A program made the translations under genes and the position numbers. DNA of 64,000 bases from Porticoccaceae bacterium. Lineage in GTDB: Bacteria; Pseudomonadota; Gammaproteobacteria; Pseudomonadales; Porticoccaceae. The stretch lies in contig JAQWGK010000050.1 of NCBI GenBank assembly GCA_029238255.1, positions 186,001 through 250,000 on the forward strand, written 5' to 3'. Under the pieces are notes generated by a model, which searched no databases, was not told the DNA's origin, and was given only the letters and a program-made list of their open reading frames with translations. Positions within the stretch are counted from its first letter, which is position 1. The number at the start of each line of letters is the position of its first letter. Below are positions 18,122-39,597 of the stretch, piece after piece.

Positions 18122-18210
18122 AAGTATATATCCAACTTCCTGTAGTGATTTTTGGGCGTTTTGCATCTATCTTTAAGGTTCATCATTACTTTTTTGTGCC
18201 CCCCACCTCT

Positions 18211-19398
18211 ATGCATAATCCTGGCGTCAGCTCCACCATTAAAACCTTTATGAAACACGAATCTGCAGGCGGCATATTGCTGATAATTGCAGCGCTGTTG
18301 GCGATGTTCTGCGCCAATTCATTTCTCTCTGAGTACTACGAACTACTGTTATCAACGCCGGTAGAGTTTCGCGTCGGTGCGCTGGAGATCGCCAAGCCTC
18401 TGCTGCTGTGGATCAACGATGGGTTGATGGCTATTTTCTTCTTTTTAGTGGGCCTCGAACTAAAGAGAGAGTTGGTAGAGGGCGAGCTGGCCGATAAACG
18501 CAATATTATCCTGCCCGGGATTGGTGCTGTAGGCGGCATGGCCGTTCCGGCACTGGTTTATCTCTATTTTAACCATGGTTCCAGCGCGGCGGATGGCTGG
18601 GCTATACCGGCGGCCACAGATATCGCTTTTGCCTTAGGCGTGCTCTCACTGCTCGGCTCAAGGGTGCCGGTTGCGATCAAGATATTCCTAACTTCTCTAG
18701 CGATTTTTGATGATGTGGGCGCGATTATCATTATTGCGATTTTCTATACCGCAAAAATATCCCCAACCGCCCTGATTATCGTCGCCTGCTGTATTCCGGT
18801 TCTGGCAATTATGAACCGCCGCAATATCACCGCCAATAGCCCCTATATATTGATCGGACTGATTATGTGGGTCGCGACGCTGAAGTCTGGCGTGCACGCC
18901 ACCTTGTCCGGTGTGATTATGGCGATGTTTATTCCCATGCGATCAAAAAAAGACCCCAGTTTTTCACCCCTTAGAACACTGGAAAATGACTTGCATGCAG
19001 TGGTCGCTTTTCTGGTGCTACCGGTCTTTGCCTTTGCCAATGCCGGTATTAATTTTACCGGCGTTGGCGTAGATCAGTTATTTCACAGTGTTTCAATCGG
19101 TATAGCCCTGGGCTTATTTGTCGGTAAACAGGTCGGTATCTTCGGGTTTTGTTGGTTGGTGGTTAAGCTAAAGCTGGTAAGACTGCCCAATGATATGAAC
19201 TGGGGAAGCCTCTACGGCACCGCCGCGCTCTGTGGCATAGGCTTTACGATGAGCCTGTTTATCGGTTCACTGGCCTTTGAGGGAAATGGTCAGAGTATGC
19301 TCTTTGACGAGCGCCTGGGGATTGTTATCGGCTCACTGGTCTCTGGTATCTTTGGTTATTTAATTCTGTTTAAGGCACTGCCAAAGGCACGCAAATAG
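18211..19398 (+). CDS. nhaA: Na+/H+ antiporter NhaA
   Basis: A 395-residue inner-membrane antiporter exporting Na+ in exchange for H+. It has about twelve hydrophobic segments. Key family motifs are MAIFFFLVGLELKRE, PAATDIAFALG (the Asp equivalent to E. coli D133) and AIFDDVGAI (Asp167 and Asp168, equivalent to the ion-binding D163/D164), followed by HATLSG and GFTMSLFI. I chose the ATG at 18211, giving the usual length; an in-frame GTG at 18145 would add 22 residues with no membrane meaning. Neither has a strong ribosome binding site. The antiporter fits a salt-exposed organism. Confidence 0.95.
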   Translation: MHNPGVSSTIKTFMKHESAGGILLIIAALLAMFCANSFLSEYYELLLSTPVEFRVGALEIAKPLLLWINDGLMAIFFFLVGLELKRELVEGELADKRNIILPGIGAVGGMAVPALVYLYFNHGSSAADGWAIPAATDIAFALGVLSLLGSRVPVAIKIFLTSLAIFDDVGAIIIIAIFYTAKISPTALIIVACCIPVLAIMNRRNITANSPYILIGLIMWVATLKSGVHATLSGVIMAMFIPMRSKKDPSFSPLRTLENDLHAVVAFLVLPVFAFANAGINFTGVGVDQLFHSVSIGIALGLFVGKQVGIFGFCWLVVKLKLVRLPNDMNWGSLYGTAALCGIGFTMSLFIGSLAFEGNGQSMLFDERLGIVIGSLVSGIFGYLILFKALPKARK

Positions 19399-19432: not shown

Positions 19433-19783
19433 ATGAGCCAAGAACAGCCCAATAACCCATTGCATGGGATCACTCTGGAACAGGTCGTCACCCGACTTGA
19501 GCGGCGCTATGGCTGGGCTTATCTGGCCGCTAATATCAATATCAACTGCTTTAAAAGCAACCCGTCGGTGAAATCCAGTCTTAAATTTTTACGCAGAACA
19601 CTCTGGGCTCGCGAGAAAGTCGAAGCGTTGTATATCGCCGCCTTTAGAGATGAGAAGCCGGTTAAACCAGCGTCTGTAAATCAAGTGCCGGTCAAAAAAG
19701 CATCTGTAAAAGAAGCCCCAGCAGCAGAAGCTTCGCAAAAATCCAATCCATGGACCTCAGGCCAACTGAAAAATTCACAATAG
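19433..19783 (+). CDS. VF530 (DUF2132) family protein
   Basis: A 116-residue protein whose first 75 residues match the VF530/DUF2132 fold: NPLHGITLEQVVTRLERRYG, then ININCFKSNPSVKSSLKFLR and WAREKVEALY. The family is a small helical domain described as DNA-binding-like, with no known role. The last 40 residues are a Lys/Ala/Pro-rich tail with near-repeats (PVKPASVNQ, PVKKASVKE), probably disordered. The stop is followed by a 315-bp stretch without a recognised gene. Confidence 0.82.
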   Translation: MSQEQPNNPLHGITLEQVVTRLERRYGWAYLAANININCFKSNPSVKSSLKFLRRTLWAREKVEALYIAAFRDEKPVKPASVNQVPVKKASVKEAPAAEASQKSNPWTSGQLKNSQ

Positions 19784-20098
19784 CCTAATCGGGTTATGCA
19801 GTGCTCCCTAAGCTAGTCTATTAGTTTTCTCTAGAATTTATTTTAATAATCCGTATATTTATAAAAGGATGACCTGTTTATGGATAAACAGATTATTCGC
19901 GGTACTTTTTAAAGATTTTAGAAATTTAAGAAAAAAATTACTCTCTTTTTGAATTTTCATGCTGAGTGATTTTGCTTATCCAACGGAAGTAATAAGAGAC
20001 ACCGGAAGTTTTGCGCGCAATACCGGCGCAAGAATTCATGGATAAGCCTCACCGTGAATTCAGAAGTACCTTCAATGAGGCACAAAAAGGATTTTAAT
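19784..20098. other. A/T-rich gene-free stretch with a nested inverted repeat
   Basis: No convincing gene is seen here. Bases 19974-20047 hold a 9-bp perfect inverted repeat (GCTTATCCA, and its complement at 20039-20047) enclosing a second one (TTGCGC at 20011-20016 with GCGCAA at 20026-20031), so the segment could fold into a long structured element. A further pair of GAATTCA/TGAATTC arms lies at about 20032-20062. The avidin-like gene begins at 20099 with AAAGGA upstream. It may be a leader, a small mobile remnant or an unrecognised RNA. Confidence 0.5.
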
Positions 20099-20557
20099 AT
20101 GTACTCAAGAAATAAAATTGGTTTGTTTGCGAGCTTTATATTCACTTTATTTTTAAGTTTTAACAGCTATGCAGATTCATCAACTTCTATCCCGTTTCCT
20201 TCAGTCTGGGAAAATCAAAGTGGCTCAACCCTTCAGATTGACAGTATAGGTAGCGATGGATTAATTACCGGCTCCTATATAAATCGAGCTTCGGGCTACA
20301 GCTGTCAAAATATTTCCTACCCGGTAACCGGCTGGGCCTATGGTACTGCGCTTACCTTTAATACGCTCTGGGAGAGCGTTTCCGAATCCTGTAATTCAAT
20401 TACAGCCTGGGCGGGATTCTTATCTCAGGGGCAGATCAGTACCCTATGGAATCTGACCATTAATGGTTCTACAAGCACCTCACAGATTATTCAGGGTAGC
20501 GACACCTTTAAACAAATTCAGGCGGTTACCAATAAATCACTATTGTTGAAAAAGTAA
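20099..20557 (+). CDS. Secreted avidin family protein, rhizavidin-like
   Basis: A 152-residue precursor with a signal peptide (residues 1-25, predicted cut after SYA) and one avidin beta-barrel. Residues at biotin-binding positions of streptavidin are kept: Asn39 and Ser43 in WENQSGS, Tyr60 in GSY, Trp91, Ser100 and Thr102 in NSITAW, Trp117 in STLW, Asp135 in SDTF. Asn62 replaces the Ser of streptavidin, and Cys69 and Cys98 sit where rhizavidin-type dimeric avidins have their disulfide; INRASGYSCQN and the NKSLL tail also recall rhizavidin. So it is predicted to bind biotin tightly in the periplasm or outside the cell, probably as a dimer. AAAGGA lies upstream of the ATG. A stem-loop follows the stop. 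Biotin binding is inferred. Confidence 0.88.
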   Translation: MYSRNKIGLFASFIFTLFLSFNSYADSSTSIPFPSVWENQSGSTLQIDSIGSDGLITGSYINRASGYSCQNISYPVTGWAYGTALTFNTLWESVSESCNSITAWAGFLSQGQISTLWNLTINGSTSTSQIIQGSDTFKQIQAVTNKSLLLKK

Positions 20558-20565
20558 AATAACAG

Positions 20566-20591
20566 GTGGGAGTGTTAACCGACACTCCCAC
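20566..20591 (+). terminator. Stem-loop after the avidin gene
   Basis: A perfect 10-bp stem (GTGGGAGTGT with ACACTCCCAC) and a six-base loop begin 8 bp after the stop. There is no T-run after it, so it may terminate weakly or only protect the transcript end. Confidence 0.6.
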
Positions 20592-20661
20592 TTACTCAGA
20601 ATAATCATAAAAATTAATCAGCCGGACTTTGGGGGGAATCCAAACTACGGAGAAAAAGAAA

Positions 20662-21522
20662 ATGGATTTAATGGATTCGAAAAATGTAAATAACAGAATA
20701 AAAAAACGCAGTATTGCCATCGCGGTTATCGCCCATCTCTATCTGGCAGTTTTCACTTTAGGCGTTTCTTTAATACTACTTTTAATTATTGGTTTTATAA
20801 CTTCTACTCTGCTTGAAAAAGATATTAACGAAGCCAGATCAAGTGCCAATAGTTTTAATAAAAATTTTCCGTTTCGATATTTTGGTCAAGTGTTTGGAAG
20901 TTTTCAGCATGTTTTTCATCCCTCTTTTAGTATCGAAAAAGATATTTATACGGCGATAGAAAATGAGTTGAGAGCGAAGACACCAGTCACTTCTCTGGAC
21001 GCGATTACCATTACGGATAAAGACAAAGACCTTAATAAAAGCGAGAAAAGAAACTTTATTAAAGGGGACTCTTCGCCGACTGCGAGGGGCACGGCAATAA
21101 CACTGCTTTTGAATCAATCCAATTTCGGTTCTATGCGCTCTATTGAGTGGCGAGTGTTAGTCGGTGGCTATGTGGATAAAAATGCCAAATTTAATTTGAT
21201 TGCTTACTCATTATTTACATTTTTCTTTTGGATCGCACCCTACCTAAGACGTGAAACAGATTTGATCAGTCGGGTTAGAACTATTTATCCGGGTTCTTAC
21301 AATGATATGGACGTATCCACTCAGGTGCGCTGTCTACACGAGGCTGTCTTTGACGCAATGATTGCAGAGTTGGAAAAAAATGGCATAGATACCAGCGATT
21401 TAAAAGTCCAAAAAATGCAGACCATGAATATCAATATTTCTGGCGGCAAGGTCAATATGGGCAATGTGGTTCAGGGGGCGATGAATAAGATTGGTGGTGC
21501 GGCAAAGGGGGTTAAGGCATGA
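20662..21522 (+). CDS. Unknown membrane protein with C-terminal ISGG motif
   Basis: A 286-residue protein I do not recognise. A basic N-terminus (NRIKKR) is followed by a long hydrophobic segment (about residues 17-50), a soluble region of about 125 residues, a second hydrophobic segment (FNLIAYSLFTFFFWIAPYL, about 178-196), and a C-terminal soluble part. Near the end is MNINISGGKVNMGNVVQG, closely like the start of the next protein. I use the ATG at 20662, preceded by GGAG nine bases away; a TTG at 20629 is less likely. The stop overlaps the next start (ATGA), implying translational coupling. Base composition is A/T-rich compared with flanking housekeeping genes. Function unknown; the pair may form a membrane-tethered complex. 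Confidence 0.7.
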   Translation: MDLMDSKNVNNRIKKRSIAIAVIAHLYLAVFTLGVSLILLLIIGFITSTLLEKDINEARSSANSFNKNFPFRYFGQVFGSFQHVFHPSFSIEKDIYTAIENELRAKTPVTSLDAITITDKDKDLNKSEKRNFIKGDSSPTARGTAITLLLNQSNFGSMRSIEWRVLVGGYVDKNAKFNLIAYSLFTFFFWIAPYLRRETDLISRVRTIYPGSYNDMDVSTQVRCLHEAVFDAMIAELEKNGIDTSDLKVQKMQTMNINISGGKVNMGNVVQGAMNKIGGAAKGVKA

Positions 21523-21851
21523 CCGGTTCTGATATGAAAATTAATGTCTCTGGAGGTAATGCCAGCTTTGGCAATATCAATCAGGGTGATCATGGGCAGT
21601 TGGAGTCGAGTCAGGTGATAAGTTTTGAGGCGGTGGATGTGGAGGCCTTTTATCAGTCGATTGCCAATATCGCCGCTTACAATAATATCGATTTTAATGA
21701 TTATCAGCAGCTTAGAGCACAGGTGGCGGATTTGGTTAAACACCCCGAACAACCGGGGTTTATGGAGACTGTGGAAGAACTGTATGACAAATACAGTTGG
21801 GCGTTAAAACCACTGGGGGCACTGTTTTCTACGGTTTGTGTTGGTAGTTGA
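21519..21851 (+). CDS. Small unknown protein with N-terminal ISGG-type motif
   Basis: A 110-residue protein with no family I recognise. It opens with MKINVSGGNASFGNINQG (residues 6-23), identical at 10 of 18 positions to the C-terminal motif of the upstream membrane protein. The rest is probably helical (VDVEAFYQSIANIAAYNNI and later VEELYDKYSWALKPLGALF). Glycine-rich repeats of this kind, with a GN or GD and a following Q/D-G, recur in proteins of STAND-type and other conflict systems, but no nuclease, NTPase or protease domain is visible here. The gene overlaps the upstream stop by four bases; AAGGGGG precedes it. Function unknown. Confidence 0.68.
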   Translation: MTGSDMKINVSGGNASFGNINQGDHGQLESSQVISFEAVDVEAFYQSIANIAAYNNIDFNDYQQLRAQVADLVKHPEQPGFMETVEELYDKYSWALKPLGALFSTVCVGS

Positions 21852-38754: not shown

Positions 38755-39597
38755 TTGAAAATTTTATTAGCAGGCTGTGGTGATATTGGCTGTCGTACTG
38801 GGTTACAGCTCGCACCGCAGTTCGAATGTTTTGGGATGAAGCGCAATCCTCAAAATTTACCGGACTCTATTCGTCCTGTGACTGGCAGCCTTACCGATCT
38901 CGATCGTTTGCAGGAGGTTTTGGCTGAGGGGTTCGATGTGATTGTAGTGACCCTAACGCCGGGTGCATTTACTCCGGAAGCCTACCAAAAATCCTATGTG
39001 GATGGCGCGGCAACCCTCGCCACTGCCATTGATAAGTCGGAACATAAACCGCGTCTGGTTATCTGGGTTTCCAGTACCAGCGTGTATGGGGATAATCAGG
39101 GTGCCTGGGTCGATGAGCAGTCGGTGACGGAACCGCTATCATTTTCCGGAAAGTTATTATTGCAGGCAGAAGAGCATATTGGCGCACTGCCCTGCGCTTC
39201 AATTATTGTCAGATTTTCTGGTATCTATGGCCCCGGCCGCACCCGTATGCTGGGTCAGATATTGGCTGGCAAAGGCCGTCCGGCTGAGCCTCAACAGTGG
39301 AGTAACCGCATTCACAGTGATGACTGTGCCGGGGTTTTGGCCCATCTAATTCGCTGTTTTGAAAAGGGTGAGCAGCTCGATAGTCTATATGTGGCGACCG
39401 ATTGTGCGCCGGTGACTCAGCATGATCTGCGTATTTGGTTGGCACAGCAGTTGGAGGTTGAGTTGCAGGATGAGATTGTGAAGCAGAAGGCGATTCGCCG
39501 CTGTAGTAACCAGCGGCTTTTAGACAGTGGCTATCAGTTTACTTACCCGGGGTATAAAGAGGGTTATCAATCTTTGATTGATGCGCTGCCTGAATAA
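38755..39597 (+). CDS. NAD-dependent epimerase/short-chain dehydrogenase-like protein
   Basis: A 280-residue extended-SDR-like protein of the YeeZ type. The N-terminal LLAGCGDIGCRTGLQL segment is a Rossmann glycine motif of the GxGxxG kind, VSSTSVYG carries the active-site-region Ser/Tyr, and YGPGRTRMLGQI and RIHSDDCAGVL are typical of this subgroup. The substrate is unknown. The start is TTG with GGGA eight bases upstream; an ATG fourteen bases earlier is out of frame and stops at once. It converges on ridA with seven bases between stops. Confidence 0.82.
   Translation: MKILLAGCGDIGCRTGLQLAPQFECFGMKRNPQNLPDSIRPVTGSLTDLDRLQEVLAEGFDVIVVTLTPGAFTPEAYQKSYVDGAATLATAIDKSEHKPRLVIWVSSTSVYGDNQGAWVDEQSVTEPLSFSGKLLLQAEEHIGALPCASIIVRFSGIYGPGRTRMLGQILAGKGRPAEPQQWSNRIHSDDCAGVLAHLIRCFEKGEQLDSLYVATDCAPVTQHDLRIWLAQQLEVELQDEIVKQKAIRRCSNQRLLDSGYQFTYPGYKEGYQSLIDALPE

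Follow-up and report, generated by a model that had tools for sequence, protein, structure and literature searches.

The window, as we call the whole stretch of 64,000 nucleotides analysed here, carries on its forward strand an avidin gene with a candidate leader RNA before it, a VF530-type gene upstream and two unnamed genes downstream. The features are as follows.

19433-19783, + strand: VF530-type DNA-binding protein, upstream neighbour (Pfam PF09905, E 6e-33)
20032-20041, + strand: 5' arm of leader RNA helix P1 (covariation; model match 20029-20098, this sequence being in the seed)
20046-20051, + strand: 5' strand of leader RNA helix P2, GCCTCA, in the P1 loop (covariation)
20052-20061, + strand: 3' arm of P1 (covariation)
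20076-20081, + strand: 3' strand of P2, TGAGGC (covariation), five bases before the Shine-Dalgarno sequence
20087-20091, + strand: Shine-Dalgarno sequence AAGGA (read from the sequence)
20099-20557, + strand: avidin gene, 152 aa (open frame; Pfam, PDB-sequence and Foldseek matches)
20099-20173, + strand: predicted signal peptide, residues 1-25 (by eye from the translation)
20303-20305, + strand: codon of Cys69, the loop L3,4 half of a predicted bridge (alignment with wilavidin, shwanavidin and rhizavidin)
20390-20392, + strand: codon of Cys98, the loop L5,6 half of the predicted bridge (same alignment)
20519-20554, + strand: C-terminal tail past strand 8, residues 141-152, QAVTNKSLLLKK (KS(L/I) conservation)
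20629-21522, + strand: unnamed protein with hydrophobic stretches, downstream neighbour (in-frame ATG at 20662)
21519-21851, + strand: unnamed 110-aa protein, downstream neighbour ((I/V)SGGxxxxGN motif in common with the preceding protein)

The ATG at 20099 is backed as the start by AAGGA at 20087-20091 and by the matching starts of relatives; the longer in-frame starts, GTG 20054 and ATG 20075, fall within the conserved leader RNA. A sigma-70 promoter scan around the avidin gene found none, with 2.9 expected in shuffles. Directly after the avidin stop lies a 10-pair hairpin (GTGGGAGTGT...ACACTCCCAC, 20566-20591), which is terminator-like on the minus strand only. Upstream, an NhaA-type antiporter gene (18145-19398) sits between a CxxCxxCC gene and the VF530 gene; genome G030 has it nearly whole and the part of G029 that was covered contains it too, G022 and G011 retain only its C-terminal end, and it was not found at the loci of several congeners.

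Avidin family and biotin-contact residues

We found that the product of 20099-20557 matches the Pfam Avidin family (PF01382) with E 5.3e-12 and 46.6 bits relative to a cut-off of 24. Its best sequence matches among solved structures are wilavidin (7ouq, E 6.7e-46), shwanavidin (3szh, 6.3e-38) and rhizavidin (3ew1, 3.3e-25), far above streptavidin, and it is closest in sequence to the rhizavidin/shwanavidin group. These matches agree with the original prediction, which had called the protein a rhizavidin-like avidin. Its AlphaFold2 model (mean pLDDT 72.9) has eight strands, the eight-stranded barrel by which the avidin family is recognised; Foldseek with this model placed wilavidin at the top and shwanavidin next, and the best 50 matches listed are all avidins or streptavidin variants. 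Judged from its sequence and modelled fold, the window protein is an avidin of the shwanavidin/wilavidin group and ordinary within its family.

Ten positions, which we take to be the biotin contacts (streptavidin numbering), namely N39, S43, Y60, N62, W91, S100, T102, W104, W117 and D135, are identical in wilavidin, shwanavidin and rhizavidin in pairwise alignments, and so are C69 and C98. The same 12 positions are invariant across a seven-row alignment of relatives, so the claims that the contact residues and both cysteines are kept hold. From the family and the kept residues, high-affinity biotin binding by the window avidin would be expected.

Judged by eye from the translation, the N-terminal residues resemble a Sec signal peptide that ends in a signal-peptidase-I type site, SYA before D26, in line with the clear signal peptide that had been described. 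The further word 'secreted' stands only as far as export: in a Gram-negative cell such a signal peptide would predict export to the periplasm, not release, and two congeners have a lipobox-like LSAC instead. The latter ends the signal peptides of the G021 and G419 avidins (L067, L066), and the remnants in G011 and G030 (L060, L058) have LSAC or LMAC, LMAC being that of G030. Anchoring of the avidin may thus differ between sister species, with lipobox-like sites in some and signal-peptidase-I type sites in others.

A Pfam search found one avidin in the window's own genome (2.2 Mb in 79 contigs, 98% complete). For the pair G023/G430 we obtained a dN/dS of 0.16 at a dS of 0.94, the sole informative unsaturated pair; the other pairs are saturated, and G419/G021 are nearly identical (1.1, uninformative). 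Coding changes in the avidin look constrained, as under purifying selection.

Comparison with known avidins

Wilavidin (PDB 7ouq, 7our, 7p8y; encoded in MAG SURF_13, L073) is the closest to the window avidin by both sequence and fold. Its Foldseek identity is 62-65% for six full-length chains, which hold ranks 1-6, and 68% for a short form; the two proteins have the same contacts and cysteines, and their alignment is gap-free over residues 33-148. Unlike the window gene, the wilavidin gene has no leader match. Shwanavidin (PDB 3szh) belongs to the same group, is likewise gammaproteobacterial and has the same cysteine positions, but has four additional residues in one loop and a Phe at the position of Tyr67 in the window avidin; the title of entry 3t2x names a low-affinity F43A mutant. 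A Shewanella gene (L075) differs from shwanavidin at 2 of 113 compared residues and has no leader match. Rhizavidin (PDB 3ew1, from Rhizobium etli p42d) is of the dimeric type and has the same cysteines and the same NKSLL tail; it is 43.7% identical to the window avidin over 74% of the query, and its gene is plasmid-borne, alphaproteobacterial and without a leader match (L131).

The occurrence of such an avidin in a gammaproteobacterium, which had been singled out, has precedents: shwanavidin comes from Shewanella denitrificans, as passages of PMC5398887 state, and a gammaproteobacterial MAG (L073) encodes 116 residues of wilavidin without a single difference. The two cysteines had also been read as the mark of a dimer, joined by a 'dimer disulfide'. 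According to the same passages of PMC5398887, the pair bridges loops L3,4 and L5,6 in dimeric-type avidins, its importance for biotin binding was demonstrated by mutagenesis of shwanavidin and rhizavidin, and the tetrameric bradavidin has a comparable bridge. Hence, the bridge is a feature of the binding site within one subunit and not a link between dimer partners, because it joins loops, contributes to biotin binding and is present in a tetramer. The Cys69 and Cys98 positions of the window avidin, with their predicted bridge, fit the dimeric type, a fit that is not exclusive to dimers.

The C-terminal tail is conserved as well, with KSL or KSI close to the C-terminus in 15/19 aligned avidin rows, rhizavidin included; in the window avidin, residues 144-152 have an AlphaFold2 confidence below 50. 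Wilavidin reportedly forms hexamers via its C-terminal tail, which reads KSKTL versus NKSLL in the window avidin. In hoefavidin the C-terminal peptide occupies the binding site (passages of PMC5398887). We set the conserved tail aside as proof of hexamers and keep it as a lead only.

Genomic context and inheritance

Of the 50 genomes of the genus, nine match the avidin profile, seven over nearly the full length and two (G011 and G030) in part, and the other 41 have no match. Some PF01382 match occurs in 26/390 genomes of the order, and in a class-wide sample of 369 genomes this avidin type was found only in the window's own genome (E up to 0.001). When one genome per species was scanned with a pattern, 17 loci came up, of which L077 is truncated; they range from Porticoccaceae to Thiodiazotropha, Methylobacter, Frateuria, Sulfuricellaceae and Shewanella. 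An earlier single-protein scan had yielded no such locus. No avidin above noise was seen in G236, G004, G029, G348, G193 and G026.

The VF530-type gene stands upstream of the avidin in 6/7 genus genomes with an intact avidin, the window's own included; in the seventh, G430 (L084), the contig ends upstream of the avidin, so that no VF530 gene is visible. Downstream of the intact genus avidins lies the unnamed protein or, in G002, a 56-aa gene. The two unnamed genes of the window, 20629-21522 and 21519-21851, overlap by four bases, and the (I/V)SGGxxxxGN(I/V) motif is found at the end of the first protein and the start of the second; Pfam, NCBIfam and PADLOC gave no match for either. The first of them occurs in 15/50 genus genomes, of which 6 carry an intact avidin. 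This protein and an intact avidin stand together in G000, G021, G022, G419 and G430 (5/15), and in G023 the downstream neighbour of the avidin is broken; the protein is further found with avidin remnants in G011 and G030 and in seven genomes with neither avidin nor remnant, and G002 has the avidin without it. We therefore rejected the avidin and this protein as a functional pair: by their distribution in the genus they are neighbours, not an obligate pair.

The seven genus avidins form one clade (support 97/97; 96% of 200 bootstrap trees). Within it, G021, G419 and G022 group together (100/99), which fits a clade of the fba+pgk species tree, built from 31 of the 50 genus genomes with G430 left out. 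There is one weak conflict: G000 groups with G023/G430 in the avidin tree (84/72), but in the species tree it is G002 that groups with G023 (84). At the avidin site, G011 retains a frame that has an internal deletion and in which Asp135 is changed, and G030 retains little beyond the signal peptide. G018 and G017, which group with the window genome (support 92), have a different frame of 123 aa exactly at the avidin's place (L055 6593-7108 and L056 8081-8594), cysteine-rich and with a hydrophobic end. Such a record at one genus locus fits vertical descent with several losses. A plasmid origin was rejected, as all plasmid matches are below 60% identity and 37/41 records are in Rhizobium. A phage origin was rejected as well, with no phage match and with two viral-contig stretches that fit a pattern and do not encode a relative; the search used a single-protein query and reaches close relatives only.

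A predicted pseudoknot in the avidin leader

Upstream of the avidin gene we found a structured leader RNA, which had been overlooked in the original prediction. In the window, P1 has 10 pairs, one of them G-U, and simple folding, free of pseudoknots, gives P1 with a z of -2.8. Among avidin leaders the P1 loop carries GCCTC, GCCCC or GCTTC, complementary to a segment shortly before the Shine-Dalgarno sequence. The loop lengths of the window pseudoknot, 4, 0 and 14, suit an H-type pseudoknot.

In an alignment of 16 sequences, 89.7% of cells pair versus 79.8% after shuffling, and the covariation score is 0.461 versus 0.259, with 0/500 shuffles as high; structures slid along the same sequences pair at only 29-44%. 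Seven pairs changed on both sides, a count that 62/500 shuffles reach and that is not exceptional. An alignment of 11 sequences gave similar figures (93.3% paired; covariation 0.418 versus 0.278 shuffled, 0/500; slid structures 25-49%). Both alignments are small and made up of related sequences, and shuffling of this kind is a lenient control for such data. Another 93% paired figure, with 0/2000 arm swaps as high, comes from 15 leaders aligned by hand; the arms were chosen by the author, which makes it the weakest of the three tests.

A strict pseudoknot finder that needs no alignment gave matches in 8/19 avidin leaders, relative to 46/3800 shuffles and 0/39 other gene starts of the window, under rules fixed after a looser first run. 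One of the eight, in UBA9220, lies elsewhere in the leader and is not counted as the leader element, and the finder missed eight leaders that show an imperfect form by eye. The looser first finder had placed pseudoknots elsewhere in G023, L068, L073 and L074, which are not counted either.

The direction of the element is indicated by its wobble pairs. We counted 30 G-U cells versus 6 mirror-image A-C cells (p 7e-5, treating non-independent cells as independent); the counts are 22 versus 6 in 13 lineages, and 10 versus 6 when each type is taken once per column pair. Hence, the excess of G-U over A-C points to an RNA read in the direction of the avidin gene and speaks against a DNA operator. In the 16-row alignment, every column that is invariant or nearly so belongs to a helix. 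The lack of unpaired columns among them argues against a ligand pocket of any elaborate kind, and control by a protein, by temperature or through a simple switch would be compatible with it. We conclude that the leader is very probably a functional structured RNA.

Distribution of the leader

The leader stands directly upstream of 14/18 intact group avidins inspected, from Porticoccaceae to Frateuria and Methylobacter; the 18 leave out the truncated L077, which is also without a leader match. The four others, L068, L073 (the wilavidin gene), L074 and L075 (Shewanella), gave no match with model R2. Hence, an avidin of this group does not need the leader.

Two models were used, R1 with 11 seeds, built without the distant members, and R2 with 16 sequences, G241 among them. 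Over 64 sources (619 kb), R1 found its seeds, their near-copies and, rightly placed, L071 (E 0.22) and L076 with its twin L030 (0.31), along with one chance match at window position 39520; it reached Sulfuricellaceae and L076 at E 0.2-0.3 only and missed Frateuria and Methylobacter. Over 390 order-level genomes, R1 gave four strong matches, of which three are at avidins and are all seeds. The fourth, in G241 (E 2.3e-7), is not a seed; its P1 pairs 9/9 with other letters and its P2 only 4/6. It lies (L135 1501-1722) directly before a 50-aa frame with a signal peptide and without avidin similarity, which may be a decayed avidin or a second gene type under the same leader. Two further R1 matches (E 0.04 and 0.07) look like chance.

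Over 35 chosen genomes, R2 matched 14/18 intact avidin loci, that of Frateuria (L070) weakly (E 0.04), and nearly all of its matches are its training sequences. It also matched two avidin remnants and G241; an extra match in G030 (E 0.002) is a decayed locus, apparently of a second strain in that MAG, and six more (E 0.6-0.96) are at chance level. The window's own whole genome has one leader match. Loci of other avidin kinds in the order gave no leader match better than E 3.6, and no leader copy was found before the host biotin cluster (L089). Thus, G241 excepted, the strong matches of the leader models sit at avidin loci or their remains.

Rfam release 15 gave 0 matches at gathering over the window and 2 over 11 loci, neither at the leader. 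Up to E 10, there are only four chance-level matches (E 2.2 to 9.1), far below their cut-offs. A SAM riboswitch (RF00162) at L070 11584-11700 is some 5 kb away from the avidin gene of Frateuria. The leader is apparently undescribed and new to the sources searched.

Biotin synthesis genes in the host and its genus

In the host, bioB, bioF, a bioH-bioC fusion and bioD form one cluster, and bioA lies elsewhere. The fusion is a single gene (L089 6364-7941) that joins a BioH-like esterase to a BioC methyltransferase; its BioC part scores over the curated cut-off and its BioH part below. Across the genus, bioB is over the cut-off in 33/50 genomes and bioF in 29/50, and 9 of the 30 better genomes are without bioB. 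In one side branch, ten sampled genomes have no avidin match and 9/10 are without bioB over the cut-off. Among avidin carriers, G419 (87% complete) shows no bioB.

We considered the avidin as a mark of biotin prototrophs and rejected it, since bioB is over the cut-off in 6/7 intact carriers versus 27/43 others (p 0.40, not significant). With remnants counted, the association (p 0.14) is not significant and is confounded by descent. Control of the window avidin by BirA was also rejected: in a fuzzy search of 15 avidin leaders and the host bioB with a consensus that we take to be the E. coli-type operator, none was found before the window avidin, and one 5-mismatch match fell before bioB and one before the Methylobacter avidin.

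Discussion

The reading that we prefer, with a probability of about 0.6, is an exported, biotin-holding avidin whose translation is set by a pseudoknotted leader. The avidin would be made with a Sec signal and exported to the periplasm or beyond, its C69-C98 bridge would be formed by oxidation outside the cytoplasm, and the protein would hold biotin there. In the leader, P1 would fold, its loop would pair with the segment just before the Shine-Dalgarno sequence to form P2, and the compact pseudoknot would limit ribosome entry until a signal or the unfolding of P2 opens the leader. Control of translation initiation is the simplest reading because the element sits where a fold can block the ribosome, P2 ending five bases before AAGGA. 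We infer in this way that the leader acts on avidin translation and represses it; its signal and the ecological role of the avidin are proposals likewise. For that role, we think it more probable that the avidin denies biotin to others, or retains it at the cell surface, than that the producer feeds on it, because the host has its own biotin genes and no bioB is seen in about a third of its congeners.

The leader could itself be a biotin riboswitch, in which biotin or a close relative stabilises the pseudoknot and shuts off avidin translation in a biotin-rich cytoplasm. A small H-type pseudoknot acting on translation is an established riboswitch design, represented by the SAM/SAH and SAM-V riboswitches. 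In both of these the pseudoknot strand is at the ribosome-binding site. An in-vitro-selected biotin aptamer is reportedly a pseudoknot too, and the near confinement of strong leader matches to avidin loci or their remains would suit such a switch. Unlike SAM/SAH and SAM-V, however, the avidin leader has no Rfam gathering match, stands in another gene context and has no conserved unpaired core; most aptamers have conserved unpaired bases, whereas the conserved columns here are all helical. Nor does a biotin sensor sit easily with a single match in the own genome and no copy before the host biotin cluster. We therefore think it improbable that the leader senses biotin or a relative, and we are slightly more doubtful that it is the first natural RNA biotin switch, one that would tie the translation of avidin to how much biotin the cell itself has. 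The phrase 'biotin riboswitch' is absent from the literature searched, and wider searches gave nothing on point among the matches listed. If the leader were such a switch, a biotin-making cell would arm itself with an exported avidin only when affordable, through a minimal pseudoknot that has so far turned up almost exclusively before proteobacterial avidin genes. That the P1 inverted repeat is instead a DNA operator for a dimeric regulator, with P2 due to chance or secondary, we regard as quite improbable: operators are often inverted repeats and the P1 arms are near-perfect palindromes in several species, but the half-sites vary between species yet stay complementary, the element ends right before the Shine-Dalgarno sequence, and the G-U bias is unexpected of a double-stranded operator.

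The avidin might serve its producer's own biotin uptake or storage rather than denial. Export to the cell envelope is compatible with scavenging, and the LSAC/LMAC lipobox-like motifs of G021, G419 and the decayed G011 and G030 would keep the protein on the cell. The host nonetheless has bioA, bioB, bioF, bioC/H and bioD, tightly held biotin would need a further release step, and the side branch of ten genomes in which nine are without bioB over the cut-off has no avidin match, although this is one lineage split; scavenging is thus possible but doubtful. Decay without function would account for the remnants in two congeners and for the 41/50 genus genomes without a match, but in the window the frame, contacts, signal peptide, tail and leader are all intact and the one unsaturated informative pair gives a low dN/dS, so that we hold a decaying gene to be very improbable.

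We know of no natural role established for bacterial avidins, and a survey of bacterial avidins (PMC8033661) describes neighbouring genes with a wide variety of functions. For the exported avidin under a pseudoknotted leader that we favour, the conserved leader would be a regulatory hook, since identifying the signal that opens it would show under which conditions the cell calls for avidin. The leader would add a compact RNA element that matches nothing in Rfam release 15, and it makes avidin regulation testable. The genus is a natural experiment, in that some of its species have biotin genes together with an avidin, others have the avidin decayed or replaced, and others again are without bioB.
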